NCBI RefSeq assembly: GCF_000784735.1
Contig: NZ_JSYG01000032.1
Span: 227,656-291,655, forward strand
Direction: 5' to 3'
Length of the DNA stretch: 64,000 nt
From: Dickeya undicola
GTDB taxonomy: Bacteria; Pseudomonadota; Gammaproteobacteria; Enterobacterales; Enterobacteriaceae
Position 1 is the first letter of the stretch. Each line of letters opens with the position of its first letter. Shown in pieces: positions 37,916 through 58,089 of this stretch. Made by a program: the position numbers and the translations under genes. The notes under the pieces were generated by a model that was given only the letters and a program-made list of their open reading frames with translations, did not search any database and was not told the origin of the DNA.

Positions 37916-39136
37916 GTGGAAACCGTTTCCCCGCTTAAAAACCCCACCTTTCTGTGCTTCTGGATCGGACAAATCGCCTCTTCCTTTGCATTTCAGATGC
38001 TGGTGGTCGGGATTGGCTGGCAGATGTATGACCTGACCAACAGCGCGCTGAATCTGGGCCTGGTCGGTCTGGCTCAATTTCTGCCGCAGCTGGCGCTAAC
38101 CCTGGTTGCCGGGCACGCGGTGGATCAGTACAACCGCCGTGTGATTATCCTGTGCTGCCGCCTGCTGATGGCCGCCACCGTACTGGTGCTGGTACTGGGC
38201 AACGTCACCCATACCATCAGCGCCACCATGATTTATGCCTGTTCCGCGCTGCTGGGTGCTACGCGGGCCTTTGAAATGCCCGCAACACAGGCGCTGCTAC
38301 CAAACCTGATTGCGCCCGGCCTGCTGTCCCGCGCCGTGGCGCTGATGGCCTCCGCACGTGAAGCCACCGTTATCGCCGGCCCGGCGCTCGGTGGCCTGAT
38401 TTACCTGATCGGTGCCACCACCCTTTACGCTTCCAGCGTAGCCTGCTTTCTGATTTCGTTTCTGGTGCTGCTCAACCTGCGCTACGAGTACAAGGCACTG
38501 GCCCGTACACCGGTGAGTCTGGAAAGCCTGTTTGGCGGCATGAACTTTATCCGCCGTAATCCGGTGATTCTGGGGTCTATCTCGCTGGATATGTTCGCCG
38601 TGCTGCTCGGCGGCGCCACCGCACTGCTGCCCATCGTCGCCAAAGATATCCTGCACACTGGCCCGTGGGGACTGGGGCTGTTGCGTTGCGCGCCTGCGCT
38701 CGGTGCGGTACTGATGTCTGTCTACCTGAGTCGTCGCCCACTCACCCGCAACGTCGGAAAAATCATGTTCTCGGCGGTGGCGATGTTCGGCGCGGCCACC
38801 ATCGCGTTTGGCCTGTCCACCAATCTGTTTCTGTCGCTGTTCGCGCTGCTGTTTCTCGGCGCGTCCGATATGGTCAGCGTGGTGATCCGCTCAACGCTGG
38901 TGCAACTGGAAACACCGGATGACATGCGTGGCCGGGTCAGTGCCGCCAACTCCATCTTCATCGGCACCTCCAATCAACTGGGGGAATTTGAGTCCGGCGT
39001 GACCGCCGCCTGGCTGGGGGTGGTGCCCGCTATCGTGCTGGGTGGTGTCGGCACCCTGTTGGTAGTGGCGATATGGATGAAATATTTCCCGACGCTGACC
39101 CAACGCCAGACGCTGGAGGCGGGAGAAAACACGTAG
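37916..39136 (+). CDS. MFS exporter, EntS-like (MFS_3 family)
   Basis: A twelve-helix transporter of 406 residues. NPTFLCFWIGQIASSFAFQM, MYDLTNSALNLGLVG and the loop HAVDQYNRRVI resemble the enterobactin exporter EntS and related siderophore or metabolite exporters. It starts with GTG at 37916; a nearby ATG is out of frame. It converges on the isocyanide operon and is the obvious candidate for exporting that product (inference). Confidence 0.8.
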   Translation: METVSPLKNPTFLCFWIGQIASSFAFQMLVVGIGWQMYDLTNSALNLGLVGLAQFLPQLALTLVAGHAVDQYNRRVIILCCRLLMAATVLVLVLGNVTHTISATMIYACSALLGATRAFEMPATQALLPNLIAPGLLSRAVALMASAREATVIAGPALGGLIYLIGATTLYASSVACFLISFLVLLNLRYEYKALARTPVSLESLFGGMNFIRRNPVILGSISLDMFAVLLGGATALLPIVAKDILHTGPWGLGLLRCAPALGAVLMSVYLSRRPLTRNVGKIMFSAVAMFGAATIAFGLSTNLFLSLFALLFLGASDMVSVVIRSTLVQLETPDDMRGRVSAANSIFIGTSNQLGEFESGVTAAWLGVVPAIVLGGVGTLLVVAIWMKYFPTLTQRQTLEAGENT

Positions 39137-39198: not shown

Positions 39199-40962
39199 TC
39201 AAAACACCTGCACCCGCCATAACTCGCGACTGCGCGATGCTTCGGTCATCGGCAGTCGGCCGTGTAGCGTCTGCCAGTTATCGATGATCAGCAGGTCGCC
39301 CTGATCCCAGTCATGGGCAATCATGCAGCGCTCATCGTACACCAGCCGGTCAAGCTCTTCGATGAGGGCACGGCTTTCCTGCCCGGAAACGCCTTCCACC
39401 TCGACGGTAAATTTCTGTAATTCAGAATCGCTGCCTTCCTGATAACGGAACGCCTTTTGGCCGGTTTTCGGGTGCGCATACACCAGCGGATAAGTGCGAG
39501 GTTTACCGCCGAAATAGGTCATGGGGGTGTTATAGGTGATGTGAATGTCTTCCCATTTTTTCACAACATCCGGGCCAACCATTTCCATCACGATACGGCC
39601 ATCCACCACCGTGGTGCTGCCTTCGCCTTTCTTCGGCGGGGTTTTGCAATACAACATGAAACGCTCTGCGGTAAACCAGGGGTTGCCGCCGACCTGTTCG
39701 TGATCCAGCCGGATCATGCTCAGGTCCCAGTGTATCGGCGTTTTCTCCAGCGAATGCACGAATCCATTCGGCTTTTCTTCCGGTTTCACCACATGCACCG
39801 CACCGAACTGCCACTGGAAAACCTCGCCGAACGGCTGGCAAAACGTTTCCAGTTGCTCACTACGCTCAAACTGCACGCCCTTGATACACACAAAACCGAA
39901 CTGAGCAGACAGGAAAGCCAGGAATGTCGGTGACAATGCCTCAACCCCCAGCCCTTGTGGGTCGTCGATTTTCAGGCCGAACAACGGCTGCTTGAGCAGT
40001 TCGTAGGTAAATTTTCCGGCACTGGCGTCCCCACTTTCTACATATACCCAGGGATGTCCCTGATAGGTTACCAACACATGGCGGTCTTTATCGACGCTGG
40101 CGTGCCCCAGCAGCGACACATTCCCCGCCGCCGACAGCACCGGCACGCTGTGCCACGGTTGACGCACGGTGGAAAGGCCATCGGCAAAACCGAAGGTAAA
40201 TTTCGGGCCATCGTTGTCATACTGATGAACCGACAGACGAATAGCGTCAGGAAAAGCCCGTTCCACCAGCGCACTTAACGCCTGGCCGCGATACATCATT
40301 TGATAGGCTTTTTCCGCCACGCTATTCAGGTAATCTTCATTCGACTGCTGAGGCTGCCGGTTCAGCCGCACATCGTTATACAAATAACTGCAGATTTTAT
40401 CGTGCGTCGCTGCCAGCTCATCATGACTCCTGACGCGTTTGATAAAATCAGTTATTCCCTTGTACGGTAACCCGGCCGACTTAATCAACGCTTTACGCGT
40501 TTCCTCATCCGAGCGGGCATCAGGGAAGAAATCGCCAAGAGCTTTCCATTCAATATAAGGTGACTGAATCAACGTGCGTAACTGATGGTTATATTCTTCA
40601 CGGGTTTGATCAGGAACCTCGACAATATCATTAAAGGTTGTACCATCACTTAAAATAGTTACCTGACAGCCAGGTTTATATAATCCCTGAATCGCTTTCG
40701 CCAACGACTCCAGGCGATTGATGGAAATCACATCGCCATAATCCGGCAAAATACCAAAAGACTTATCGACAACATTGGGAGATTTACAGGGGAAACCCGG
40801 CAGGACAAAGCTGACAGGTTTAGACGTGTGCAGGAAGGCGCTAATTTGTTTTTCCAGCACTGCACGCCCCTCCGGTTCAAAACGATCATGTGGTGCCTGA
40901 ACCAGATAAGATTTTACAATGTCGGCTATCTTACCGACCGTTTCATTCAAACTATCGTGCAT
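39199..40962 (-). CDS. Isocyanide synthase fused to Fe(II)/2-oxoglutarate oxygenase (PvcA-PvcB / IsnA-IsnB fusion)
   Basis: A 587-residue two-domain enzyme. Residues about 1-315 are a PvcA/DIT1-type isocyanide synthase (FVLPGFPCKSPNVVDKSFG, LPDYGDVISINRL, TILSDGTTFNDIV), which turns an amino-acid amine, usually of Tyr or Trp, into an isonitrile with ribulose 5-phosphate. Residues about 330-587 are a TauD/PvcB-type oxygenase with iron ligands His411 and Asp413 (HWDLSMIRLD) and His567 (HGRLPMTEASRSREL). PvcB relatives desaturate the side chain. In most bacteria these are two genes. A ggag precedes the ATG. Last gene of the operon, 176 bases after the HAD gene. Confidence 0.87.
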   Translation of the reverse strand: MHDSLNETVGKIADIVKSYLVQAPHDRFEPEGRAVLEKQISAFLHTSKPVSFVLPGFPCKSPNVVDKSFGILPDYGDVISINRLESLAKAIQGLYKPGCQVTILSDGTTFNDIVEVPDQTREEYNHQLRTLIQSPYIEWKALGDFFPDARSDEETRKALIKSAGLPYKGITDFIKRVRSHDELAATHDKICSYLYNDVRLNRQPQQSNEDYLNSVAEKAYQMMYRGQALSALVERAFPDAIRLSVHQYDNDGPKFTFGFADGLSTVRQPWHSVPVLSAAGNVSLLGHASVDKDRHVLVTYQGHPWVYVESGDASAGKFTYELLKQPLFGLKIDDPQGLGVEALSPTFLAFLSAQFGFVCIKGVQFERSEQLETFCQPFGEVFQWQFGAVHVVKPEEKPNGFVHSLEKTPIHWDLSMIRLDHEQVGGNPWFTAERFMLYCKTPPKKGEGSTTVVDGRIVMEMVGPDVVKKWEDIHITYNTPMTYFGGKPRTYPLVYAHPKTGQKAFRYQEGSDSELQKFTVEVEGVSGQESRALIEELDRLVYDERCMIAHDWDQGDLLIIDNWQTLHGRLPMTEASRSRELWRVQVF

Positions 40963-47377: not shown

Positions 47378-47406
47378 TTGACACAATTAACTGTAGCCAA
47401 TAATAT
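47378..47406 (+). promoter_or_regulatory. Sigma-70-like promoter of the RiPP operon
   Basis: A perfect -35 hexamer ttgaca (47378-47383), exactly 17 bases, then taatat (47401-47406, four of six consensus positions). Transcription would begin near 47413, leaving a leader of about 60 bases before the precursor gene. Confidence 0.7.
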
Positions 47407-47474
47407 TTGTCACGCGGAACAAACACATCCCGCTTAATTCAAAAAACTCAATGTGAAACTATAAGGAAAGTAAT

Positions 47475-47597
47475 ATGGATAAGGCTCAAGAATTAGAGTT
47501 GGCAGTTGCTGAATTGAATGCAGAAAATGCTGAAGCTGAAAATGAAATTCTGCTGGATGTAACCTGCATGGTTTCTAATAAAGAGTGGCAAGAATAA
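47475..47597 (+). CDS. Candidate RiPP precursor peptide (40 residues)
   Basis: A 40-codon gene starting MDKAQELELAVAEL and ending DVTCMVSNKEWQE. The first 27 residues are acidic, Ala/Glu/Asn-rich and helical, as expected of a leader. The last 13 hold one Cys (31), Thr30, Ser34, Asn35, Asp28 and Trp38, residues that the downstream enzymes could modify. A good aaggaaa ribosome-binding site precedes the ATG. It is the first gene behind the promoter, followed by a stem-loop and then the modification operon. There is no Gly-Gly or other clear cleavage site. The call rests on context and composition; I do not recognise the sequence. Confidence 0.75.
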   Translation: MDKAQELELAVAELNAENAEAENEILLDVTCMVSNKEWQE

Positions 47598-47603
47598 GAA
47601 AAA

Positions 47604-47622
47604 GTGGCCGCAATGCGGCCAC
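47604..47622 (+). terminator. Stem-loop between precursor gene and modification genes (attenuator candidate)
   Basis: The perfect eight-base-pair stem gtggccgc/gcggccac with a three-base loop stands six bases after the precursor stop. The tail is only ctttcatt, so read-through is expected; such a loop usually raises the amount of precursor mRNA over enzyme mRNA. Confidence 0.65.
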
Positions 47623-47693
47623 CTTTCATTAGGTCATTTCAAACAGAAATCAAAACCATACTTTACTTTTCAGTAATAGAAAGGTATTCATTT

Positions 47694-48779
47694 ATGAGCA
47701 ATATAGTCGATGGAATTGACAGTATCCGTTCAATATCTATAGATGAATTGAAAGACAATAATGGCTTTCTTCTGGTTGATGTAAGAGAAAGTCATGAATA
47801 TCTTGATGGTACTATTCCCAAGGCACTTACTATTGGACGTGGATTTTTAGAAATAGAATTGAAGAAAAGAAAAATAGAACTAGATAAACCCATCGTCCTC
47901 TTTTGCGCAAGTGGCTTACGCTCCAGGTATGCTGCATTAAGTTTAACGCTTCTTAATTATTCGAATATCTACTCACTACAGGGTGGATTTGAAGCCTGGA
48001 AAGCTCAGGGGAATAAAATTGAATATCCACTGAGTCTTAGTGATAAGGATAAAAAACGTTACGCAAGACATCTGTCGCTGCAAGACATCGGTTCTGATGG
48101 CCAGTTTAAAATTATGCAAGCGAAAGTACTGGTTGTGGGTGCCGGAGGGCTCGGCTCATCATGTCTTCTGTATCTCGCAGCCGCCGGTGTTGGTGAAATT
48201 GCTATTGTCGATCATGATATTGTTGACCTGAGCAATTTACAACGGCAGGTTATTCATAACGAGAACATGCTGAAAAGGAAAAAAGTTGACTCTGCATTGC
48301 ATACTCTTCGAGCACTAAACTCTGAGATCACAATAAATACTATTGATGATCGGGTTACGCCAGAAAACATTGATGCATTAGTTGACAGTTATGACGTCAT
48401 CGTAGATTGTACCGACAACTTTAAAGCGCGATACATTATTAACGACGCAGCTGTCGCCGCTGGAAAGCCTGTCGTTTCTGCAGCCGTATTTCGCTTTTCC
48501 GGACAAGTAATGACACGCTCGAATAACCAAGCACCGTGTTATCGCTGTGTCTATCCAGAAGCCCCGCCTGCGGAATTAGCCCCCTCCTGTACAGAGAATG
48601 GCGTTATTGGCGTTATCCCTGGAATGCTCGGGATATATCAGGCAAACGAAGTACTGAAGATCATTCTTGGGATTGGCGAGTGTTTAAATGGAAAATTATT
48701 AAAAATAGATATGCTCAACAATCAACACCTGTTGTTAACCACGAAAAAACGCCCTGGATGTCAATGCCATAATAATTAA
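47694..48779 (+). CDS. Rhodanese-ThiF/MoeB fusion, sulfur-carrier activating enzyme
   Basis: A 361-residue fusion. Residues about 10-108 are a rhodanese domain with the persulfide loop CASGLRSR (Cys71). Residues about 115-361 are an E1-like ThiF/MoeB domain with VLVVGAGGLGSS, DHDIVDLSNLQRQV, the zinc-binding CYRC ... CQC pairs and the PSCTENGVIGVIPG block. MoeZ/MOCS3 proteins have these domains in the opposite order. It should adenylate the C-terminal glycine of the carrier encoded next and load it with sulfur to a thiocarboxylate. Start at 47694 from domain fit. Gap to the next gene is 15 bases. Confidence 0.87.
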   Translation: MSNIVDGIDSIRSISIDELKDNNGFLLVDVRESHEYLDGTIPKALTIGRGFLEIELKKRKIELDKPIVLFCASGLRSRYAALSLTLLNYSNIYSLQGGFEAWKAQGNKIEYPLSLSDKDKKRYARHLSLQDIGSDGQFKIMQAKVLVVGAGGLGSSCLLYLAAAGVGEIAIVDHDIVDLSNLQRQVIHNENMLKRKKVDSALHTLRALNSEITINTIDDRVTPENIDALVDSYDVIVDCTDNFKARYIINDAAVAAGKPVVSAAVFRFSGQVMTRSNNQAPCYRCVYPEAPPAELAPSCTENGVIGVIPGMLGIYQANEVLKIILGIGECLNGKLLKIDMLNNQHLLLTTKKRPGCQCHNN

Positions 48780-48794
48780 TGGAGCAGTGTTACG

Positions 48795-49055
48795 ATGATT
48801 GATATATCTCTACCAGAATCAATAAAAGGCATAATTAAGATAACAACAGACTCTAAAAACCTTAATGATATCTTACTTGAAATTAGTAGTGTAAATCCTG
48901 ATGCATTTAAATTAATAGCCATTGAAAAAAATGAAAGCTGTAAATTAAAACCTTTCATTACTCTTTTCATTAACAATGCGATGTCGGTTGATAGTAACCC
49001 AGTTCTAACCGATGGCGATCACTTAACATTTGAAGTGGCTATTTCGGGAGGTTAA
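48795..49055 (+). CDS. MoaD/ThiS-like ubiquitin-fold sulfur carrier
   Basis: An 86-residue beta-grasp carrier that ends VAISGG, the Gly-Gly tail required for adenylation and thiocarboxylation. PVLTDGDHLTFEV is the typical penultimate strand of MoaD/ThiS proteins. Placed right behind its E1-like enzyme and upstream of YcaO/TfuA, it is the likely sulfide donor of the cluster. A ggag precedes the ATG. Confidence 0.85.
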   Translation: MIDISLPESIKGIIKITTDSKNLNDILLEISSVNPDAFKLIAIEKNESCKLKPFITLFINNAMSVDSNPVLTDGDHLTFEVAISGG

Positions 49056-49057
49056 TC

Positions 49058-49642
49058 ATGGACGCAAAAAAGTTACAAAAAGCATATGTGTCGATGCTAT
49101 ATAGCAATAACTATCGGATAAGCGATGCTGATACAGAGTATCAGTTCCTCGCCCAGACAATGGACAGCGAAAGGCTGCTCGTTGAACGCGCAGCCAGACA
49201 GCGTAATTTGCGTACTGTACTTTATTCAGATATGCATTTTACTCCGCGTTTTTTTAGCAAAGAACAGCTTCTCTCCCTGGTAATAGCATATTGTGAGTCA
49301 GACAGTTTCTGGAACTGGAACAGCAGGACGCTTATTGAAAGCTTTTGCGCATTTGTTGTCAAAAAATCCGTCCTGACTGAAGAAGAGAAAACTATATTCC
49401 TGGTTGATGGAATTTATTCTGGCATCTCAACAAATTCAGAAAACTCTCCCTGGAAGTCGAGAGTAAGTCATATCGCCGATAAATCGATAACTGAAGAGGT
49501 TATCCTCGAAAGGTATTTTTCATTATCATTATTAAGCAAAGCAACACATCTCTCTGATGTCAAATTTGAGAATAAAAAAGCATGTTTACGCTTACACAAT
49601 GAAAACGGGAAAGTCGCGATTTCACTTAAGGAGACAGCATGA
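49058..49642 (+). CDS. Unknown protein, candidate MNIO partner / precursor-binding protein
   Basis: I do not recognise this 194-residue protein. It is mostly helical, with several aromatic residues (MLYSNNYRISDADTEYQF, SDSFWNWNSRTLIESFCAF) and no membrane segment. Its stop overlaps the MNIO start by four bases (ATGA). MNIO enzymes commonly need a partner encoded next to them that binds the leader peptide, so I infer that role. The sequence does not obviously look like DUF2063. Confidence 0.6.
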   Translation: MDAKKLQKAYVSMLYSNNYRISDADTEYQFLAQTMDSERLLVERAARQRNLRTVLYSDMHFTPRFFSKEQLLSLVIAYCESDSFWNWNSRTLIESFCAFVVKKSVLTEEEKTIFLVDGIYSGISTNSENSPWKSRVSHIADKSITEEVILERYFSLSLLSKATHLSDVKFENKKACLRLHNENGKVAISLKETA

Positions 49643-50472
49643 GTTCATTCGTCGGATTAGGGATTGATTATACTCACAGCTATGGCCATAAATTAAGTGA
49701 GCTATTACAATTATCTCGGCATGGAATTAGCCACTTATCTGTTGTTGCTATTCCAGATCTCGCCGTAGCTAAAACATTTCGTCAGACTTTTATTGATTAC
49801 CCAATCATACACCATTTTTCCGGTATGGAACCTGCGGGAATTGATGGATTACGGCCTGATGTATTGGAACGCCAAAGTGAAATCAGTAATGAATTGCAAG
49901 CAGCATGGTGCCTGGAAGATATTGGCATTTGGAATGTTGGTCCTTACAATCTTCCCTACTTCGCCGCCCCCGTACTTTGTGAATCCGTCCTGGCAATGAC
50001 CATCGAGGGGGTAAAACGTATTCAGCAAGTCTCTCGTATTCCGTTCTGTGCTGAAATTCCCTCGTTCAGTATCGCCGCAGGCGACATGACGCTGGGTGAG
50101 TTTTTTCATCGTCTGGTTGATGCGACTCAATGTGGTGTCGTGTTAGATATCAGCCATGTCTTTTCTTATGCGATCTATTATGGCCTAAAACCGGAAGATG
50201 TCTTAACTAGCCTGCCACTTTCTGCCGTTAATGAGATTCATATTGCAGGTGGTAGCGTTCATCCTAAACATCATTGGCGTTATCGTGATACGCACTCAGA
50301 AAAAATTGTTGCTGAGGTTTTCCCTTTACTAGAACAAGCCATTACGCAATGTACTAACCTTAAAGCTATCACCTATGAGTTAGGGATCGGAATTTCAACT
50401 GAAGTGATCGTAACGGACCTGGGGAATATAGATAATGCCTGTCAAAGGATGAATTTCTCCCCTTCATTCTGA
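49639..50472 (+). CDS. MNIO (DUF692) multinuclear iron oxidase
   Basis: A 277-residue TIM-barrel oxidase of the DUF692/MNIO group, as in MbnB and related peptide-modifying enzymes. Metal-ligand blocks are IIHHFSGMEP, FCAEIPSFS, VVLDISHVFSYA and EIHIAGGSVHPKHHW plus a late DTHSEK and TYELG. MNIOs use iron and oxygen to rearrange Cys (oxazolone/thioamide, excision) or modify Asp/Asn in peptides. The precursor has a single Cys31 that could be the target. It has an aaggag ribosome-binding site. Confidence 0.85.
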   Translation: MSSFVGLGIDYTHSYGHKLSELLQLSRHGISHLSVVAIPDLAVAKTFRQTFIDYPIIHHFSGMEPAGIDGLRPDVLERQSEISNELQAAWCLEDIGIWNVGPYNLPYFAAPVLCESVLAMTIEGVKRIQQVSRIPFCAEIPSFSIAAGDMTLGEFFHRLVDATQCGVVLDISHVFSYAIYYGLKPEDVLTSLPLSAVNEIHIAGGSVHPKHHWRYRDTHSEKIVAEVFPLLEQAITQCTNLKAITYELGIGISTEVIVTDLGNIDNACQRMNFSPSF

Positions 50473-50513
50473 CTTAAAAATAAATATAATAGCACTGGTT
50501 AATAAGGCAATGT

Positions 50514-53500
50514 ATGGATACTAACAACACGACTATCCTGTTATTTGATAGTGCAAGAAAAAACGAAATCGTAAAGCTGACGGAAATATCCAATGTAGAG
50601 ATATTGCATCCACATACAGTTAAAATCTCCAGCTTGCTGGCCAGTGAACTTTTTTCTTGCTCAGGAAAAGACCTTTCCCGCGTTGTTTCCGCCAGCTATC
50701 TTGACGCGTTATCCCAAGGCTACGATAACGTGAGAAAGAGAGTAGCCAAAAAATTTAGAACCTGTCATGTGGAGGCACATGCCTATTCTTCTGCTGAAAA
50801 TGAATTTTCTCATGCGCTGCATACAGCTTTAACCAACTTTTCCGACGAAACTGAAAAACCTTACATATTGGCATCAGTCGGTCATGATTTCGGTCGTCAA
50901 CGTTTTCCCGGCTCATCGACGGAAACAATCGGTGTGGCTCTGTTATTAAAAAACAACACCATTCCAGGCAAAACACCGGCAGGCAATGGCAATATAGAAT
51001 TTATTGTCAGGGAGTTTGACTATCCAACACGTAATAATGCTGGAGCGTCTGACACCATAAAAGGCACCTCTGCCGCTGTCGTTTACCTCGCGGGGCTGGC
51101 TGCTAATCTACGCGACTTTCTTATAACGTTGGGAAATCCTCACGATCGCCTTGCGCTGCACGCCGGTATGATTTACCTGAGTGAGGCATATCAGGGATTG
51201 TATTTGTTTGAAAACAAGGCACTGCCGCAACCACTGCCACAGTGTTGGGATCTCAATGTCGGCAGGTCAACACAGGTAGAAGCCATCTTCACATTGCCGT
51301 CAACAAGCGCGGGAGTGAAGATAGGTCTGGCCGCCAGTTTTCAGGGGAGTATCGCACGCACAACCCGGTTAACAACAATAATCGATGGTCAAAAAATCAT
51401 TGGGGAAAATGGAACACTACTTATTTCTACCGAGCAGTTGAGCCAGCCAGGCGAGCATACGATAAGATTACAAGTAGAAGGGCTGTTCGATCGGATAACC
51501 TTCGCCTCTCAGGAAACCCTCGTCACAGAAATAACGTCTTCCACTCCTCTGATTAAAGCTGATGATGATGTCATTGTTGGCATTTCTGCCAGTCATGATG
51601 CGTCGGCCTGCCTGCTGGTCAACGGTAAAATTCGTTATGGCATTCAACTGGAGCGCCTTACGCGAATTAAACATGATGGACGAAATATTCTCGACACTAC
51701 CCTGGCGGTAGATTATTGCCTGTCAGCAGCAGGCCTTACTTACAATGACGTGAACTGTTTTGCCTATAATATTCAGGCTGCCACACCGGAATATGTCGGC
51801 CTTAATCAGCCGATCCATGCTGCAGATTTCACCCTGTTTGATCCGTTCTCCGCCAAAGCCGTCTTTGCCAGCCACCATCTGTGTCATGCCTTTGCCGCCT
51901 GGTCTGGTTCGAAATTTAACCAGGGTAATGTGCTGGTCGTTGATGGTTCAGGCGGAACCGTCGTGGGCCAGGACGATCTTTTATGCAATGGCGAAGAATT
52001 TTCCACCTACTTGAATACCGGTCTACATGGAATTAAACCGCTGTTGCATGTCGTATCGCATTATTCTTTTGATCAGCGGGGCTATCAACTCGTAAACCGG
52101 GAATACAGCCCATCATTTAATATTAGAAATGGCAGTTTTTCCCTTGGCGAAGCCTATGCTTCCGTGAGCCAGTTCGTATTTAATTCCTGGCAGGCATCAG
52201 GTAAATTGATGGGATTAGCGCCGTATGGCACACCTGAGTATGCGAATGAAATCGCGGTTGAAACACCTTCAGGCCTATCGTATGGCTACGAGTGGAAGCA
52301 AAAATTTACTGAAAAGAAAGCGAATCCTATGGATTACGCTAATCTGGCAGCCTCGGTGCAAGCCGTGTTAGAAAAAGGAATATTTTCCCGCCTGGAGCGT
52401 TTCCAGATTACGAATAACACGCCGCTGGTCATGACCGGTGGCGTGTCATTAAATTCCGTCGTCAACTTCAAAGTCCGCAATCATCTTAAATTAAAAGACT
52501 TTTATCTATTCCCCGCACAACATGATGCTGGTATCTCCATCGGTGCAGCCTGTGCCGCCTATTATAAACGGCATGGAAAAACCCTGAATGATGCCTTTAG
52601 CCATGACTATCTGGGCAAAATTTATCATTACCGGGATATTGCTTTTGCGACTAACCGTTTTGCTGACAGAATAACCCTCACTCCGATTGATACTGCCGCA
52701 CTGGCAGAGCGATTAAACGCCGGACAAGTCATCGGGTATTTTTCCTGTAATAAAGGTTCTGAATTTGGTCCACGCGCGTTAGGTGCTCGCTCGCTGCTGG
52801 CAAGTCCATGTTCCATGGACACCTGGAAATTCATCAACAAGTGGGTGAAATTCCGTGAAGACTTTCGCCCCTTTGCCCCAATGGTCGCGGCTGAGCAGCT
52901 TAATCAGTACTTTGACGGGGATGGTGAACACAAATATATGCTCGAAGTTCTGCCGGTTAAAAAAGAATATCGAGATAAACTCGCCGCAATCACCCATGTT
53001 GATGGTACGGCACGGGTACAAACAGTCTCGGAACATGACAATGCCGAGATCCACGCGTTATTGAATGCCTTTGGTGAACGCTCTGGATTTCCAGTCTTGC
53101 TGAACACGTCATTTAATGTCCGTGGACAACCAATCGTTGAAGAACCACAGCAGGCAATCGAAATGTTGCTTTCAACCCATATCGATGCCGTGATATTTGG
53201 CGACTATATTGTTGAATTGCGTAAGTGGGAATTAGATGAAGAAAACCTGCCAGGACTATTACGTCTCAGCCCTGGTTGCAAGCTGCACAGCACACTGGAA
53301 AAAAATGAAGCAAAGTACTGGGTTACTCACGACTATCAAGGAATGTCAAAATTAATCAGTGCGCAACTTTATCAATCATTAACGGAACTGCTCAGGCTCC
53401 ATTATCTAGCTGATGTGCAGAACGCCTATGCTGCACTTCCTTTAACACTCAGAAAGCAGATAAATAAGTATATTCAGCTGAAATGTCTGACTCTGGCCCA

Positions 53501-53531
53501 TGATTTTTCAGCCGGGAGGAATGAACATTGA
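50514..53531 (+). CDS. O-carbamoyltransferase (NodU/TobZ family) with extra N-terminal region
   Basis: A 1005-residue enzyme. From about residue 352 it is a carbamoyltransferase: VGISASHDASACLLV, LERLTRIKHDG, SHHLCHAFAAW, VVDGSGGTV, a mid GGVSLNSVVN and the C-terminal YrdC-like nucleotide site with SEFGPRALGARSLLASP and FRPFAPMV. It transfers carbamoyl from carbamoyl phosphate to a hydroxyl via carbamoyl-AMP. The first 350 residues do not belong to NodU proteins of usual size (about 550-600); they include SVGHDFGRQRFPGSSTETIG and have no function I can name. The gene overlaps ycaO by four bases. Confidence 0.85.
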   Translation: MDTNNTTILLFDSARKNEIVKLTEISNVEILHPHTVKISSLLASELFSCSGKDLSRVVSASYLDALSQGYDNVRKRVAKKFRTCHVEAHAYSSAENEFSHALHTALTNFSDETEKPYILASVGHDFGRQRFPGSSTETIGVALLLKNNTIPGKTPAGNGNIEFIVREFDYPTRNNAGASDTIKGTSAAVVYLAGLAANLRDFLITLGNPHDRLALHAGMIYLSEAYQGLYLFENKALPQPLPQCWDLNVGRSTQVEAIFTLPSTSAGVKIGLAASFQGSIARTTRLTTIIDGQKIIGENGTLLISTEQLSQPGEHTIRLQVEGLFDRITFASQETLVTEITSSTPLIKADDDVIVGISASHDASACLLVNGKIRYGIQLERLTRIKHDGRNILDTTLAVDYCLSAAGLTYNDVNCFAYNIQAATPEYVGLNQPIHAADFTLFDPFSAKAVFASHHLCHAFAAWSGSKFNQGNVLVVDGSGGTVVGQDDLLCNGEEFSTYLNTGLHGIKPLLHVVSHYSFDQRGYQLVNREYSPSFNIRNGSFSLGEAYASVSQFVFNSWQASGKLMGLAPYGTPEYANEIAVETPSGLSYGYEWKQKFTEKKANPMDYANLAASVQAVLEKGIFSRLERFQITNNTPLVMTGGVSLNSVVNFKVRNHLKLKDFYLFPAQHDAGISIGAACAAYYKRHGKTLNDAFSHDYLGKIYHYRDIAFATNRFADRITLTPIDTAALAERLNAGQVIGYFSCNKGSEFGPRALGARSLLASPCSMDTWKFINKWVKFREDFRPFAPMVAAEQLNQYFDGDGEHKYMLEVLPVKKEYRDKLAAITHVDGTARVQTVSEHDNAEIHALLNAFGERSGFPVLLNTSFNVRGQPIVEEPQQAIEMLLSTHIDAVIFGDYIVELRKWELDEENLPGLLRLSPGCKLHSTLEKNEAKYWVTHDYQGMSKLISAQLYQSLTELLRLHYLADVQNAYAALPLTLRKQINKYIQLKCLTLAHDFSAGRNEH

Positions 53532-54694
53532 AAGCAGTAGCTCATCCCGGCTTAAGGCGTTATACCGAGAAAGAAGTTCTGGCACTTGCTCTACCACTGC
53601 GTAAGCGTTTAGGTATTTCAAGACTCACGTCTGTCGGTGAGTTTATTAATCTTCCGGGTATATCTATCGTTAATGCCGTGAGAACAGAGATAAAAAAAGG
53701 CCAAATTTCATCCACACAGGGGAAAGGTCGTAGTCTAATCGCTGCGACCTGCAGCGCACTGATGGAAGCGTATGAACGGCACTGTGCTTGCTGGTGTGAT
53801 CATGCCATTTTCCCTCATCAGGCAACCAGGGACGATAACAAGACACTGCAACGATTAGGTTTCGCTCCGGAATGTGATATTCAGCAATGGATAAAAGGAT
53901 ATGAATGGCATTCAGGTCGCGAGCTACGCCTCCCAGCTATTGAAGTACAATTTCCCTATCATGGTTCCGACAAGCATAACGCGAATATACAAGCGCATAC
54001 TTCCGGACTGGCTTGCGGTGGCAGTCTGGAAGAAGCGATCTGTTTTGCGATCATGGAGTCGATAGAGCGTAATACGACATCGTTGTTCTACAAGCACTGT
54101 CTATCCAAAATCTGCGCAGACTTCGTTGATCTCTCGACGATTTCCAGAGCATCGACCATGACGCTGTGGGAACATCTTAACGATAAAGGGTACGAGAGTT
54201 TCGCGTTGCGCATACACGGTCCCTTACCCACTTACTATGTTGCGCTGTATGATCCTGTCAGTATGGGACCAAAGTTTATGATTGCTGGTTCTGCGTCAGG
54301 TTTTACCGAATCTGACGCGCTGGATGCCGCAATGATGGAAGCGATTCAGGGGCTGGTAGTAAGTTTGCAAGCCTCCCGGGAAGATTTAAGCCGACAGAAG
54401 AAGAAGTACCGCTCGCAGTCTTTCTTTGAAACATCGAAATTTAACAAGTTGAAGGCGTTATTCCACAAACATTATGCCAACGTAACGATGCCATCATTAG
54501 AACGATCCTCCTCAGAGCAATCGCCCGACACGCTAACAGCTGCGACACAATTTCTTGTGAATATTCTCGAAAAGCAAGAAATAGAAGATGTTTATATTGT
54601 GGACTTATCGCTGAGTGACGTACCTTTTCATACGGTTAAAGCCGTTATTCCTGGCCTGTATGATTGGCATGTTAATCCTGGTCGTGTGGGGTAA
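53528..54694 (+). CDS. YcaO cyclodehydratase / thioamide synthase
   Basis: A 388-residue YcaO-fold enzyme that activates peptide backbone amides with ATP. The ATP/Mg sites are in STQGKGRSLIAATCSALMEA-YERH, GLACGGSLEEAICFAIMESI-ER and the later DALDAAMMEAIQG. The C-terminus (WHVNPGRVG) lacks the Pro-rich tail of azoline-forming YcaOs, as is usual for TfuA-dependent ones. The start is a TTG at 53528 behind gggagga, overlapping the previous stop. TfuA follows two bases later, so the pair is likely to make a thioamide, with azoline as alternative. Confidence 0.9.
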   Translation: MKAVAHPGLRRYTEKEVLALALPLRKRLGISRLTSVGEFINLPGISIVNAVRTEIKKGQISSTQGKGRSLIAATCSALMEAYERHCACWCDHAIFPHQATRDDNKTLQRLGFAPECDIQQWIKGYEWHSGRELRLPAIEVQFPYHGSDKHNANIQAHTSGLACGGSLEEAICFAIMESIERNTTSLFYKHCLSKICADFVDLSTISRASTMTLWEHLNDKGYESFALRIHGPLPTYYVALYDPVSMGPKFMIAGSASGFTESDALDAAMMEAIQGLVVSLQASREDLSRQKKKYRSQSFFETSKFNKLKALFHKHYANVTMPSLERSSSEQSPDTLTAATQFLVNILEKQEIEDVYIVDLSLSDVPFHTVKAVIPGLYDWHVNPGRVG

Positions 54695-54696
54695 TT

Positions 54697-55362
54697 ATGC
54701 TTTTTTCACCTAAACGTAAACCGATCGTATTTGGTGGTCCTTCAGTTTCATCGATTAAACAGCATGACGATGTTATTGAATATCGCCCACCGATTCAGGG
54801 TGGCGAACTGGCTGCATTAACAGGTAGCGGTCACCCAGTATTAATCGTTGATGGTTTATTTGGCACGAAAATGTCCGTAACCGTAGTTGAGTGTCTGGAA
54901 TTTATTCAAGCCGGAGGGCTATTGCTGGGCTGCTCTAGTATGGGAGCACTGCGCGCTGCCGATTGTTATACAGTTGGGATGGTTGGCGTAGGGCAGATTT
55001 TTCAGGGTTATCTTATGGGGTATTACCACTCTGACGCAGATGTTGCATTGCGTTATCACTCAGTTAGTCATGAAGAAATAACACTATCATGGGTGCATAT
55101 AGACCATATCACCCGCCACCTCGTCATGAAAAAACAGTTTTCATCACTCACCGCCCGACTTATTTTAGCAAAAATACGCTCTATTAGCTGGTATGAACGT
55201 TATATTGACCAGGTAGTAGAAATCATCCAGTCTTTCTCACCGCAGATCAAGGATAGTGAATTAAGAACACTATTTAGCGATGACGCTTTGCATCCTAAAA
55301 AAAATGATGCTCAATTAGCGATTAATTATCTGACTCAATTTTATCTGGCAAGACGTGAGTAA
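54697..55362 (+). CDS. TfuA-family YcaO partner
   Basis: A 221-residue TfuA-like protein: IVFGGPSVSS, EYRPPIQGGELAAL, VLIVDGLFG and the signature LLLGCSSMGALRAADCYTVG. TfuA supplies or positions sulfide for YcaO-dependent thioamidation (methyl-CoM reductase thioglycine, thioamide peptides). Here a dedicated carrier and E1/rhodanese in the same operon could be its sulfur source. It is adjacent to ycaO with a two-base gap. Confidence 0.88.
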   Translation: MLFSPKRKPIVFGGPSVSSIKQHDDVIEYRPPIQGGELAALTGSGHPVLIVDGLFGTKMSVTVVECLEFIQAGGLLLGCSSMGALRAADCYTVGMVGVGQIFQGYLMGYYHSDADVALRYHSVSHEEITLSWVHIDHITRHLVMKKQFSSLTARLILAKIRSISWYERYIDQVVEIIQSFSPQIKDSELRTLFSDDALHPKKNDAQLAINYLTQFYLARRE

Positions 55363-55368
55363 TAAAAA

Positions 55369-56703
55369 ATGAAAAACAGTCATTGGTTAAAAAGCATCGG
55401 TTATCTGGATAGCTCTTTCCGTGCGATGCAATCCACATCAAATCAGTTAAGTCATCTGTTAGTCGGTGCATTAGGCGGGATGTTTAGCTCTGCAGTTTCA
55501 CTACGCGTGTCTATCGCGTTTTATTCATCAATCATCCTCGAAGTGCCATCGGGTTTACTCGCCGATAGGCTGGGGCATTTTAGAAGCGTTGCTTTGGGTA
55601 GCTATTTTACCGCATCGGCCCTGCTGACGCTTTTTTTCTCACTGATAAGCACCCACGATGCTGGCTTACAAATAGCGCTGTTGATCCTTAGCTCATTTCT
55701 CAGCGCTATCGGCATGAGCCTGATTTCGGGTGCCTATCAGGCAATGCTGCAAGACATGATAGACAACCAAATCATTAAGTATGGTGGGGAAAGTGGGCTA
55801 CGAACAAAAGCACTTCTACTTTCACAGCGATACGGTAAAGAAATTGTGTCGATTGTTCCGATCATCTTTCTGCTCATTCTGCTCGTGATGTATCGAACTA
55901 TCGGGTATGCAGAAGTGATGCTGTTTATCCCTGCAATTATGTTTATAATTCTTGGAATCTGGTTATGGCGTTACCCGAAAAAAAATAACACACACTTTAT
56001 TTTCACTGAAAATAACCATAAAGCCAATAATAAAAATACGCTTAGAAATTTCATTTCTTGTCTCAGAGCAATGAGCCGAGAGCAGTTGATCATGCTGATT
56101 AAAATCTCGATAATAATCGTTTTACTTAATTTCTCAATGGTCCACGTCCATACGTACTTGATGGTAGCGGAATTTAGGGAATATAACATCATGAACATTA
56201 GTATTATTTACCTTATCCCTTTATTCTTGTTTATTGCCTCCTTTGATGCCGCCCATTATGTTAAGGGTATAATCGTGCCACGTGCTGCGGCAAAATTTGA
56301 TGATAAGTCACTGATTATTTTTTCCTTCAGCAGCCTCGTATTATTATCTGCCGGTTGCTATTTCCTCTATATTTACTGCGATGGTATACTTTCACTTATT
56401 TTATATGTTTTGTTTTTCCGTGCTTGTGTCACCATGGGACAGGACGTTGCCATCAGTAATTTACTGGCTCGTCTTCCTGAAGAGATTCGGGCATTCACCC
56501 TTAGCCTGGTGATGAGTTCCGTGATTGTTCTATACGGTGCATACTCTGTCTATTTAACATTTATCGGTATTGGTGCAGAACCCGCACAGAATGTTTTGAT
56601 AGAAATTCTGGTAATTGCTTTAATTGGCGGCGTTTTCTCACTGTCACTAAAAATAGTGCCGTTGAATGAACCTGATGGTTCTGAACTGCAAGCATCAAAT
56701 TAA
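55369..56703 (+). CDS. MFS transporter of the RiPP cluster
   Basis: A 444-residue membrane protein with about twelve helices. The first loop SIILEVPSGLLADRLGHFRS is the MFS motif A. It resembles drug or peptide-export MFS proteins. In the operon it is the only transporter, so it most likely exports the mature peptide and thereby gives immunity (inference). Six bases follow tfuA. Confidence 0.83.
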   Translation: MKNSHWLKSIGYLDSSFRAMQSTSNQLSHLLVGALGGMFSSAVSLRVSIAFYSSIILEVPSGLLADRLGHFRSVALGSYFTASALLTLFFSLISTHDAGLQIALLILSSFLSAIGMSLISGAYQAMLQDMIDNQIIKYGGESGLRTKALLLSQRYGKEIVSIVPIIFLLILLVMYRTIGYAEVMLFIPAIMFIILGIWLWRYPKKNNTHFIFTENNHKANNKNTLRNFISCLRAMSREQLIMLIKISIIIVLLNFSMVHVHTYLMVAEFREYNIMNISIIYLIPLFLFIASFDAAHYVKGIIVPRAAAKFDDKSLIIFSFSSLVLLSAGCYFLYIYCDGILSLILYVLFFRACVTMGQDVAISNLLARLPEEIRAFTLSLVMSSVIVLYGAYSVYLTFIGIGAEPAQNVLIEILVIALIGGVFSLSLKIVPLNEPDGSELQASN

Positions 56704-56725
56704 TAATCAAACCGGGAAAAGAAGC

Positions 56726-57286
56726 ATGAACACAGAAAAAACAAAATTATTCTCCACTGCCAGAACGGATGTTTACTGCCTTACAACGGACTTTTCCGAG
56801 CAGTTTCAACTTTTCTTAGTCGAAAATCGGGATAATTTCGCACCATTTGAACCATTGCGCACTGAAGATTACTTTTCGCTTGAGAGCATCAGGCAGCGTA
56901 TTACCGATGCTCAAACTGATTTTAAAGCAAGGAAGTGCCTATTGCTTGTGTTCACTATCAAAGGAGAAGATAAGATCATCGGGAGCATTAATTTTACAAA
57001 TTTTGTTTACGGTGTATTTCAGGCCGGTTACTTAGGCTTTTCAATCGATAAATCATATCAAGGGCAAGGGTTGATGCATGAAGCGTTGGAAAGCGCAATC
57101 ACCTATGTCCATGAAAACTACGGTTTGCATCGTATTATGGCTAACCACCTTCCCAACAATTTACGTAGTAAAAATATATTAGCAAGACTTGGGTTTGTAA
57201 ATGAAGGATTTGCTAGATCCTATTTAAAGATAAATGGAAAATGGCAAGATCACGTTCTGAATTCATACATAGCGCCTGAAAAATAA
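56726..57286 (+). CDS. GNAT acetyltransferase, RimJ/RimL-like
   Basis: A 186-residue N-acetyltransferase. The acetyl-CoA loop is YLGFSIDKSYQGQGLMHEAL and HRIMANHLPNNLRSKNILAR with LGFVNEGFARSYLKINGKWQ is the RimJ/L C-terminal pattern. In this cluster it may cap the N-terminus of the trimmed peptide or detoxify the product for self-protection, as MccE does for processed microcin C. The start is at 56726; the frame overlapping the MFS gene is not conserved. Confidence 0.83.
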   Translation: MNTEKTKLFSTARTDVYCLTTDFSEQFQLFLVENRDNFAPFEPLRTEDYFSLESIRQRITDAQTDFKARKCLLLVFTIKGEDKIIGSINFTNFVYGVFQAGYLGFSIDKSYQGQGLMHEALESAITYVHENYGLHRIMANHLPNNLRSKNILARLGFVNEGFARSYLKINGKWQDHVLNSYIAPEK

Positions 57287-57300
57287 AAAGGATAAATAAC

Positions 57301-58089
57301 ATGGACAAGAGCGAAATCAATCGGTATCTCAAGAAATCATTTGCTGATATCACTACGCAGATTTCTGATATTTATGGTGTTGATTCGACAGAACGTTTAT
57401 CCGATTTTATGGCCGGGATGTTGGGTGAATCTCATAGCAAGCCATCACACCCGCTGCAAAAACCACGTCTACTGTTTTTCCCTGGCCTTGACAACGGTCC
57501 ATGGATTGATGAAAGTTCAAATGAAGCAACTGCACAGGTCGCTAACCTGCTGACCGAACACTTTCATCCGATTAAAGAGGAATTCACCGCAGCAACCAGT
57601 CAATTGAAAGCGTACTCATCCAGTAATCTATTTAAAAACCTGTCACAAAAAGACTGGTCATCCATTTCACTTTGGAGCCGAGGGAAGTTCAGTGAACAAA
57701 TAGCTCACTTCCCTACTATAGAAAAATTAATCGGTAAATTTGAAGACCTTCTTTTTCCGTGGCGAGGAGAGGTTACGTTTATGCGGTTAAAAGCCGGAGC
57801 CTGGCTGCCTGAACATTATGACTGGACTAATGCACAGATAACCTGCCATTTTGGTATTAATATCCCTGATGATTGTGGCCTAATCGTTGCGGGAGAAGAA
57901 CGACGCTGGGAAGAAGGAAAGTCTATTTTTTTCGACCATAGTTTCCTTCATCATGTATACAATCATTCTGCGAGTGATCGTGACATCTTATTAATTAATT
58001 TTTTGCATCCTGAGCTCACTGATGCAGAAATTCATGGAATAAGACTATTAGGCCCGGTTCTGGCAAAAATCAGCGATCCCCCCCAATGA
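57301..58089 (+). CDS. Aspartyl/asparaginyl beta-hydroxylase-family dioxygenase
   Basis: A 262-residue Fe(II)/2-oxoglutarate enzyme of the Asp/Asn beta-hydroxylase (LpxO/AspH) group. The core is LKAGAWLPEHYDWTNAQITC, then VAGEERRWEEGKSIFFDHSF with LHHVYNHS; the likely iron ligands are His of PEHYD and His of HHVYNHS. Hydroxylating Asp28 or Asn35 of the precursor would create the hydroxyl that the carbamoyltransferase needs, which is an attractive but unproven sequence of steps. It is the last gene of the operon. Confidence 0.83.
   Translation: MDKSEINRYLKKSFADITTQISDIYGVDSTERLSDFMAGMLGESHSKPSHPLQKPRLLFFPGLDNGPWIDESSNEATAQVANLLTEHFHPIKEEFTAATSQLKAYSSSNLFKNLSQKDWSSISLWSRGKFSEQIAHFPTIEKLIGKFEDLLFPWRGEVTFMRLKAGAWLPEHYDWTNAQITCHFGINIPDDCGLIVAGEERRWEEGKSIFFDHSFLHHVYNHSASDRDILLINFLHPELTDAEIHGIRLLGPVLAKISDPPQ

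Follow-up and report, generated by a model that had tools for sequence, protein, structure and literature searches.

The window analysed here, a 64,000-nucleotide stretch of Dickeya undicola DNA, carries an operon at positions 47475-58089, consisting of one 40-residue peptide gene and ten enzyme or transport genes (A to K), all on the forward strand. Pfam and NCBIfam matches supported ThiF plus rhodanese, MNIO, carbamoyltransferase, YcaO, TfuA, MFS, GNAT, and Asp/Asn hydroxylase assignments; the small carrier-like protein (C) and the 194-residue protein (D) had no match of their own in these collections. In the list below, Std names refer to the std RiPP of Streptomyces thermodiastaticus JCM 4840, described in a bioRxiv preprint of May 2026 (PMC13174530).

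47378..47407, +: putative promoter (-35 TTGACA, 17-18 nt, AT-rich -10), conserved in 4/4 operon-bearing genomes of the genus
47475..47597, +: A, precursor peptide of 40 residues with C-terminal SNKEWQE (core SNK, follower EWQE), a motif as in StdA (PMC13174530)
47599..47627, +: hairpin after A, stem identical in four genomes
47694..48779, +: B, rhodanese-ThiF/MoeB-type E1, predicted to activate sulfur (Pfam/NCBIfam, alignment)
48795..49055, +: C, likely MoaD/ThiS-like sulfur carrier ending in GG (weak profile matches)
49058..49642, +: D, MNIO partner protein, StdD relative (aligns with its positional counterpart in Streptomyces; predicted fold)
49639..50472, +: E, MNIO (DUF692), StdE relative (Pfam/NCBIfam; 42% identity to the S. 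thermodiastaticus MNIO)
50514..53531, +: F, subtilase (S8) domain fused to a NodU-type carbamoyltransferase, StdF relative; triad D12, H34, S186
53528..54694, +: G, YcaO of the thioamidation type (Pfam/NCBIfam)
54697..55362, +: H, TfuA (Pfam/NCBIfam)
55369..56703, +: I, predicted MFS exporter (family match; an MFS gene also lies in the S. thermodiastaticus locus)
56726..57286, +: J, RimJ-like GNAT N-acetyltransferase (Pfam/NCBIfam, PDB matches, tree)
57301..58089, +: K, PF05118 aspartyl/asparaginyl beta-hydroxylase family oxygenase (Pfam, alignment)

From B onward, the intergenic spacings were 15, 2, -4, 41, -4, 2, 6, 22, and 14 bases, confirming the tight packing (-4 to 41 bases after the first enzyme gene) that an earlier note on this DNA had reported for the ten genes and the peptide gene. 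For B, we regard ATG 47694 as a better start than GTG 47604. The same note had placed the operon behind one promoter; in favor of this, TTGACA at 47378 and the -10 element are kept in 4/4 operon-bearing genomes of the genus, but a promoter scan yielded no more sites than did shuffled sequences (26 vs 25.7). The hairpin 3' of A is likely a partial terminator that sets the ratio of precursor to enzymes. All eleven genes recur in three further genomes of the genus, where the encoded proteins are 77-98% identical, gene by gene, and the arrangement is therefore not due to chance. Moreover, a SNKEWQE-stop pattern occurred in exactly the 4/9 genus genomes carrying the full-length carbamoyltransferase. 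Across the genus, precursor and enzymes thus go together, contrary to the lack of co-conservation that the note had named as refuting its proposal. When E. coli genomes and plasmids were searched by megablast DNA identity, the operon had no match; in viral contigs, three stretches fitted a pattern, none of them coding for a relative. Homologs from Xenorhabdus, Photorhabdus, and Erwiniaceae were found as single proteins, without gene context.

In the std system, the YcaO-TfuA pair StdGH thioamidates Asn, with sulfide; both the conversion of Lys to homocitrulline by carbamoylation and the removal of EWQE were demonstrated for the entire S8-NodU protein StdF; and the partner-MNIO pair StdDE places hydroxyls on both the beta and the gamma carbon of homocitrulline (PMC13174530). 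According to the same preprint, which lists 97 StdA orthologs, the mature std-family product, the leader peptidase, and the biological role are still under investigation. The window shares with std the SNKEWQE precursor end, the MNIO partner, MNIO, S8-NodU fusion, YcaO, TfuA, and MFS genes, and the order D-E-F-G-H-MFS is identical; a GNAT gene also adjoins the S. thermodiastaticus cluster. Given SNKEWQE and all std enzyme families in the same order, we conclude that the operon is a member of the std family, whose chemistry can be read from PMC13174530. The earlier proposal of an undescribed RiPP class was thus abandoned, the core gene set being already published. The window differs from std in its extra rhodanese-E1, MoaD/ThiS-like carrier, and PF05118 oxygenase, in a leader that looks unrelated, and in its Gram-negative host. 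In the main text of PMC13174530, ThiF, rhodanese, and acetyltransferase do not occur, and "hydroxylase" occurs once, in the reference list. Accordingly, the claim of an unusual gene combination falls for the core set but stands in reduced form for the E1/carrier relay, the RimJ-like GNAT, and the second oxygenase, which are new beyond the std description in that main text.

The features of a std-type RiPP were examined individually. The YcaO-TfuA pair was present, the MNIO was recognized by family, and its presumed RRE-type partner by alignment and predicted fold. The structure model of D (pTM 0.87) had the TglHI complex as its top PDB match, but no PDB match reached E <= 0.001. The S8-NodU-like fusion in F was supported by predicted fold: the model of the N-terminus (pTM 0.85, mean pLDDT 79) gave a best PDB match at E 7e-10 and TM 0.63, and among the 50 PDB matches listed, all were subtilase-family by title. 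D12, H34, and S186 of F were invariant across 12 aligned enterobacterial rows; His and Ser also aligned in P. fluorescens and three Streptomyces, and Asp aligned in P. fluorescens and was shifted one residue later in the Streptomyces sequences.

Eleven loci, representing only six lineages (four loci from one genus, three from Streptomyces), were then compared. In their precursors, Ser and Lys were kept in 12/12 and the residue before Ser was variable, a conservation that is partly circular because 6/12 precursors were found via the SNKEWQE pattern itself. Among the 18 stretches returned by the motif scan, 12 came from genomes lacking a related MNIO, and these we regarded as matches by chance. 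The scan recovered the S. thermodiastaticus strain of the std cluster, whose contig with the motif also encodes an orthologous MNIO. The counts include Burkholderia TSV86 (L052), whose contig ends 1.3 kb after E. That locus looks partial, since the operon proteins had no match in the short remaining stretch, and the assembly had, in place of an F ortholog, just a generic carbamoyltransferase (37%), and no better GNAT than a weak match (3e-7). A Piscinibacter gummiphilus plasmid (NZ_CP136338.1) resembles the window in its rhodanese-E1, partner, MNIO, carbamoyltransferase, YcaO, TfuA, GNAT, and second oxygenase, but its exporter is a C39-ABC protein in place of the MFS, and tblastn found no carrier in the cluster. 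Its precursor also differs, with ARQKPW after the core SNK; a single open frame of 1438 residues encompasses F and G, and by alignment it lacks the subtilase His and Ser. This single case, with a follower other than EWQE and without the His and Ser, is as expected if SNK is the true core and the subtilase takes off EWQE.

A GNAT gene was found in 10/11 loci (window counted), and RimJ, an N-terminal protein acetyltransferase, was the best NCBIfam model for 4/4 cluster GNATs tested. The odds of such a gene falling within 10 kb by chance were about 0.4-1.3% per genome, a range unaffected by the use of 4 matches for S. eurythermus where 3 are listed. A single-clade origin of the cluster GNATs was not supported (three label changes; one origin in 0% of 200 bootstrap trees, with long branches), and the case for their role therefore rests on repeated association. 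MccE was among the PDB matches of J (8e-7). On this basis, J would probably acetylate Ser at the N terminus once the leader is off, whether for immunity or as the final step. In the available text of PMC9239234, the microcin C operon has an MFS exporter, MccC, and a GNAT immunity protein, MccE2; relative to that description, the window is alike in its small peptide, MFS export, and GNAT, but differs in having no nucleotide-transfer product and wholly different modifications.

A second oxygenase, of the Fe/2OG type, was present in 8/11 loci (PF05118 in the window, DUF6445 elsewhere) and adjoined the GNAT in 6/8. When K was aligned with AspH, in which two His presumably bind Fe and two Arg 2OG, both His and one Arg aligned; the second Arg position is Thr, kept in 4/4. 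The NCBIfam matches of K were lipid hydroxylases, below cut-off. The second oxygenase would add a hydroxyl to the product. It is quite conceivable, though short of probable, that the product is of the same std type and that GNAT and oxygenase are plain tailoring enzymes with no immunity role: the two genes adjoin each other in Dickeya-group, Piscinibacter, and Sandaracinus loci, as expected for two tailoring steps, and N-acetylation would shield a tripeptide from aminopeptidases. However, the three Streptomyces loci keep a GNAT, encoded on the opposite strand, although neither oxygenase family has a match there, and GNATs of differing ancestry look like exchangeable resistance genes.

We also considered whether the product might be a metal-binding peptide and not an antimetabolite, its thioamide and hydroxyls chelating metal. 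Methanobactin and bufferin bind copper, several MNIO pathways give metal-binding peptides, and the MNIO relatives in NCBIfam include methanobactin and bufferin maturases. We consider this unlikely, however, as no TonB receptor or metal-responsive regulator is present among the window's ten proteins, and the sole Cys of the window precursor, kept across the Dickeya group, is missing from other relatives.

As for sulfur, B has a ThiF domain and a rhodanese Cys loop (CxSGxRS), and its score against a MoeB-type E1 model of NCBIfam exceeded the cut-off. The C-terminal GG of the carrier was invariant in 6/6; a profile of C against PDB sequences gave three matches up to E 1, all ThiS/MoaD and weak (E 0.06-0.43), and the Burkholderia copy matched moaD_arch at 3.9e-5. 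Window C alone (P0003) had no ThiS/MoaD match, the Pfam ThiS model included. Rhodanese-first B lay beside the precursor gene in 7/11 loci (four genera), and C in 6/11 (three genera). An E1 of S. barringtoniae was set aside as a cluster gene; its domain order is ThiF-first, which we take to be that of the housekeeping MoeZ. The relay is absent beside 3/11 clusters, including the published one, and is therefore not required for the chemistry. We infer that C feeds sulfur to YcaO-TfuA. That B and C instead ride along in the operon and serve thiamin, molybdopterin, or tRNA thiolation would suit the MoeB-type score of B, but is quite improbable in view of their recurrence beside the precursor gene and the failure of window C to match the Pfam ThiS model. 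Least credible is an undescribed class with azolines, the earlier note's alternative to a thioamide: YcaO is present, but both SNKEWQE and the set of enzymes agree with std, and azoline formation is unlikely because such a YcaO-TfuA pair belongs to the thioamidation type. For G, the best-scoring NCBIfam model was McrA-glycine thioamidation, which likewise points to a thioamide.

Thioamitides (thioviridamide-like) likewise undergo backbone thioamidation by YcaO-TfuA, and AviMeCys-forming enzymes accompany that pair. Unlike them, the window is expected to have one Asn target, and its ten proteins include no lanthionine-type/AviMeCys-forming or decarboxylase enzymes by Pfam/NCBIfam. Separately, PMC8864124 mentions "thiostreptamide-like" genes of D. 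zeae, which may or may not correspond to the window operon.

Taken together, these data make it probable that the operon is a std-family RiPP pathway, likely yielding a small exported peptide in which Asn is thioamidated and homocitrulline dihydroxylated; the operon's own E1/carrier pair is predicted to supply the sulfur. Rhodanese-E1 (B) would adenylate carrier C at its C-terminal GG and load it with sulfur in the form of a thiocarboxylate, and YcaO-TfuA (G, H) would use this sulfur to thioamidate the Asn of SNK. F would convert Lys to homocitrulline and, by its subtilase domain (predicted fold and triad), remove EWQE; D-E would then add two hydroxyls to homocitrulline, one each at its beta and gamma carbon, and K would add a further hydroxyl, most likely at the Asn beta carbon. 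The leader may be cut at or near Ser by a peptidase not found in the operon, after which J would acetylate Ser, by then the N-terminal residue; self-immunity as in microcin C/MccE is the most likely purpose. The MFS protein would carry the product out. The earlier prediction of a short thioamide peptide with a carbamoylated and hydroxylated side chain, exported by the MFS protein, agrees with the chemistry shown for std.

More tentatively, the product may be a ribosomal tripeptide antibiotic, in which a thiocarboxylated carrier supplies YcaO-TfuA with sulfur, an interchangeable second oxygenase hydroxylates thio-Asn, and a RimJ-derived Ser cap confers self-immunity; in this reading, the N-terminal acetyl cap would explain the family's conserved, so far unmodified Ser. 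For the std family, the 11-locus comparison adds three testable leads, namely, a RimJ-like GNAT and a second oxygenase that both recur, the oxygenase from either of two exchangeable families, and a dedicated relay for sulfur. The last of these may answer how such YcaO-TfuA enzymes obtain sulfur in the cell.

Gene calls and domain-model searches bore out both the coordinates and the gene list of the earlier note. The operon lies on the forward strand:

47475-47597, + strand: precursor peptide gene (A), 40 aa
47694-58089, + strand: ten further genes (B to K)

From B onward, successive genes are spaced by 15, 2, -4, 41, -4, 2, 6, 22, and 14 bases. Domain-model searches assigned B to rhodanese plus ThiF (an E1-type protein), E to MNIO (PF05114), G to YcaO, H to TfuA, I to MFS, J to GNAT, and K to PF05118. 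F is a carbamoyltransferase (PF02543 and PF16861) with an N-terminal extension of ~345 residues, C is a small protein with GG at its end, and D (194 aa) gave no family match in these searches. A GC-rich hairpin (47599-47627), with a stem identical in four genomes, lies between the precursor gene and B, and scores as terminator-like on both strands. A PvcA/DIT1 (Pfam PF05141)-TauD oxygenase fusion next to an MFS gene (39199-40962, - strand, and 37916-39136, + strand), 6-10 kb upstream of the operon, possibly represents a second small biosynthetic locus.

The precursor ends in SNKEWQE, as does that of the std cluster of Streptomyces thermodiastaticus JCM 4840, described in PMC13174530. There, it is reported that the Asn of SNKEWQE is thioamidated by YcaO-TfuA; that StdF, an S8-NodU fusion, converts Lys to homocitrulline by carbamoylation and also cuts off EWQE; and that StdDE (partner plus MNIO) hydroxylates the beta and gamma carbons of homocitrulline. 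According to its authors, work on the mature product, the leader protease, and the activity is still in progress. StdB and StdC are never mentioned in its main text, which refers to StdA and to StdD through StdI; the window has its E1 and carrier genes exactly in the interval between the A and D positions. Apart from the product, the defining std features were found in the window at the levels of sequence, synteny, and predicted fold, and by these the operon is a member of the std family with a distinct accessory set. Its chemistry in this host would be that of the Streptomyces work, from which it is drawn wholly by analogy. Besides PMC13174530, our literature searches found neither a description of the TfuA, YcaO, and MNIO combination nor the string SNKEWQE. 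Dickeya zeae MS_2018 was reported in PMC8864124 to carry genes similar to RiPP-like thiostreptamide, possibly the antiSMASH view of this operon type.

The fold assignments concern F and D. Residues 1-350 of F, modelled from 12 sequences, gave a pTM of 0.85 and a mean pLDDT of 79, with some stretches below 50. All 50 PDB matches listed were subtilase-family by title, the best having E 7e-10, TM 0.63, and an rmsd of 6 A. D12, H34, and S186 were invariant in the 12 aligned rows. Pseudomonas fluorescens has all three subtilase triad residues at the aligned positions; in three Streptomyces the His and Ser align and the Asp falls one residue later. In Sandaracinus the whole triad is readable by eye. 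By alignment, Piscinibacter F is missing His and Ser, and its precursor is also without EWQE; this single case fits a predicted role of the subtilase domain in EWQE removal. On the Piscinibacter plasmid, the carbamoyltransferase and YcaO form one 1438-aa open frame (L056:9218-13534) with a later annotated gene start, and a C39-ABC exporter lies upstream. D aligns with the Streptomyces protein at the StdD position. Its model (pTM 0.87) had no PDB match reaching E 0.001; the best was the TglHI complex (E 0.02, probability 0.99, TM 0.53), and the MbnABC complex ranked eighth (E 0.46, probability 0.54). Because the other chains of these entries are MNIOs, matched in the PDB by E, we infer that the chains matched by the D model would be the partners TglI and MbnC.

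Further loci were sought by scanning genome contigs with the reverse-translated SNKEWQE motif plus stop, which yielded 18 stretches. Six of the 18 genomes (S. thermodiastaticus, S. eurythermus, S. barringtoniae, P. fluorescens PfR37, Burkholderia TSV86, and a Sandaracinus MAG) had a close MNIO relative on the same contig (38-52% identity, E 2e-58 or better); the remaining 12 had none at E ≤ 0.001. Adding the Piscinibacter plasmid, found via its MNIO, and the window's genus (four genomes) brought the total to 11 loci in six lineages. The family is sporadic: in samples drawn from larger groups, each count including the centre genome, it was present in 1/394 genomes of the window's order (E ≤ 1e-30) and, at E ≤ 1e-40, in 3/391 of the window's family, 2/343 Streptomyces, 1/348 Pseudomonas, 1/249 of the Burkholderia family, and 1/144 of the Sandaracinus class.

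Partner and MNIO were present at all 11 loci; carbamoyltransferase, YcaO, TfuA, and GNAT were each present at 10 (for GNAT, five of six lineages), the exception throughout being Burkholderia. That locus holds precursor, E1, DUF6445, carrier, partner, and MNIO, followed by no operon gene before the contig end. No carbamoyltransferase ortholog was found elsewhere in the TSV86 assembly, and we read the locus as partial or decaying. A rhodanese-first E1 occurred at seven loci (the window's genus, P. fluorescens, Burkholderia, and Piscinibacter). In S. barringtoniae a ThiF-first gene, which may simply be housekeeping, adjoins the cluster; no E1 was found at the remaining three. The carrier was present at six.

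Twelve precursors were collected, six through the motif itself and six otherwise (window, three genus relatives, second Sandaracinus copy, and Piscinibacter). SNKEWQE ends 10 of them; a second Sandaracinus gene (L049:11097-11309, - strand), beside the SNKEWQE one, ends in SAKEWQD, and the Piscinibacter precursor (L056:7356-7529) in SNKARQKPW. Given that Ser and Lys are kept in 12/12 and Asn in 11/12, while the preceding residue varies (V, T, L, N, or S), the core is probably SNK, in agreement with PMC13174530.

B and C likely constitute a dedicated carrier system, judging from their sequences. In our reading of the alignment, the rhodanese loop of B has the sequence CASGLRS, and Cys pairs are also present. 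C alone gave no ThiS/MoaD-family match in domain-model or PDB sequence searches; a six-sequence profile gave three PDB matches up to E 1, all ThiS/MoaD and weak (E 0.06-0.43). The Burkholderia copy matched moaD_arch at 3.9e-5 and ThiS at 0.009. The tail IA[IS]GG was found in 6/6 rows (first Ile with reservation), with A, I, G, and G invariant. Literature searches found no carrier-fed YcaO-TfuA among the papers listed; one of them is weak, since ThiS also matched the ordinary word "this" and the listing covered 12 of 540 papers; in the available portion of PMC6511847, "sulfur carrier" occurs only within a reference.

The closest named relatives of the carbamoyltransferase, MNIO, and partner in the protein collection were Dickeya proteins (86% identity each), which makes a Dickeya host most likely. 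A full-length carbamoyltransferase was found in 4/9 genus genomes, exactly those with the SNKEWQE-stop DNA pattern, and in the three other than the window's, synteny extends over the full set of eleven genes (77-98% identity). The operon is flanked upstream by an ornithine-cyclodeaminase-like gene and downstream by a PEBP-family gene. In operon-free G008, a 180-bp match to the upstream gene's 3' end lies 54 bp from the PEBP-family match; in G002, ~2.5 kb of other DNA separates the flank matches, and G001, G003, and G006 match on the downstream flank only. Because of these flank matches and a G+C content of 42.8% (vs 51.8% for the window), we read the operon as a putative acquired island.

RimJ is the ribosomal protein S5 alanine N-acetyltransferase. 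For the GNATs (ACETYLTRANSFERASE), it was the best NCBIfam model in all four scored (window, Piscinibacter, S. thermodiastaticus, and Sandaracinus), each below the cut-off. The window's genus has a second, native RimJ-like protein 42% identical to J; in the PDB, J is also related, more weakly, to MccE of microcin C. The cluster GNATs do not form one clade, which points to probable recruitment on more than one occasion. Their repeated association with the cluster is unlikely to be accidental, since a RimJ-like gene would fall within 10 kb by chance in only ~0.4-1.3% per genome (estimate from six genomes). RimJ-type enzymes act on protein N-termini; if the leader were cut just before SNK, Ser would become the N-terminus, and so J could cap it.

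Eight loci had a second oxygenase. At the four loci from the window's genus it belongs to PF05118; in P. fluorescens, Burkholderia, Piscinibacter, and Sandaracinus it is a DUF6445 protein. The three Streptomyces loci gave no tblastn match to either. The oxygenase adjoins the GNAT at six of the eight (the window's genus, Piscinibacter, and Sandaracinus). The best PDB relative of K was AspH (1.5e-20); two His and one Arg align, and the other Arg is Thr. The four DUF6445 proteins (three aligned, the fourth read) display, in our reading, an H-x-D ... H ... R pattern, typical of Fe/2OG enzymes. The preferred candidate target of K is Asn, by beta-hydroxylation. With one or the other of two different oxygenase families occupying this position, both probably supply the same needed modification.
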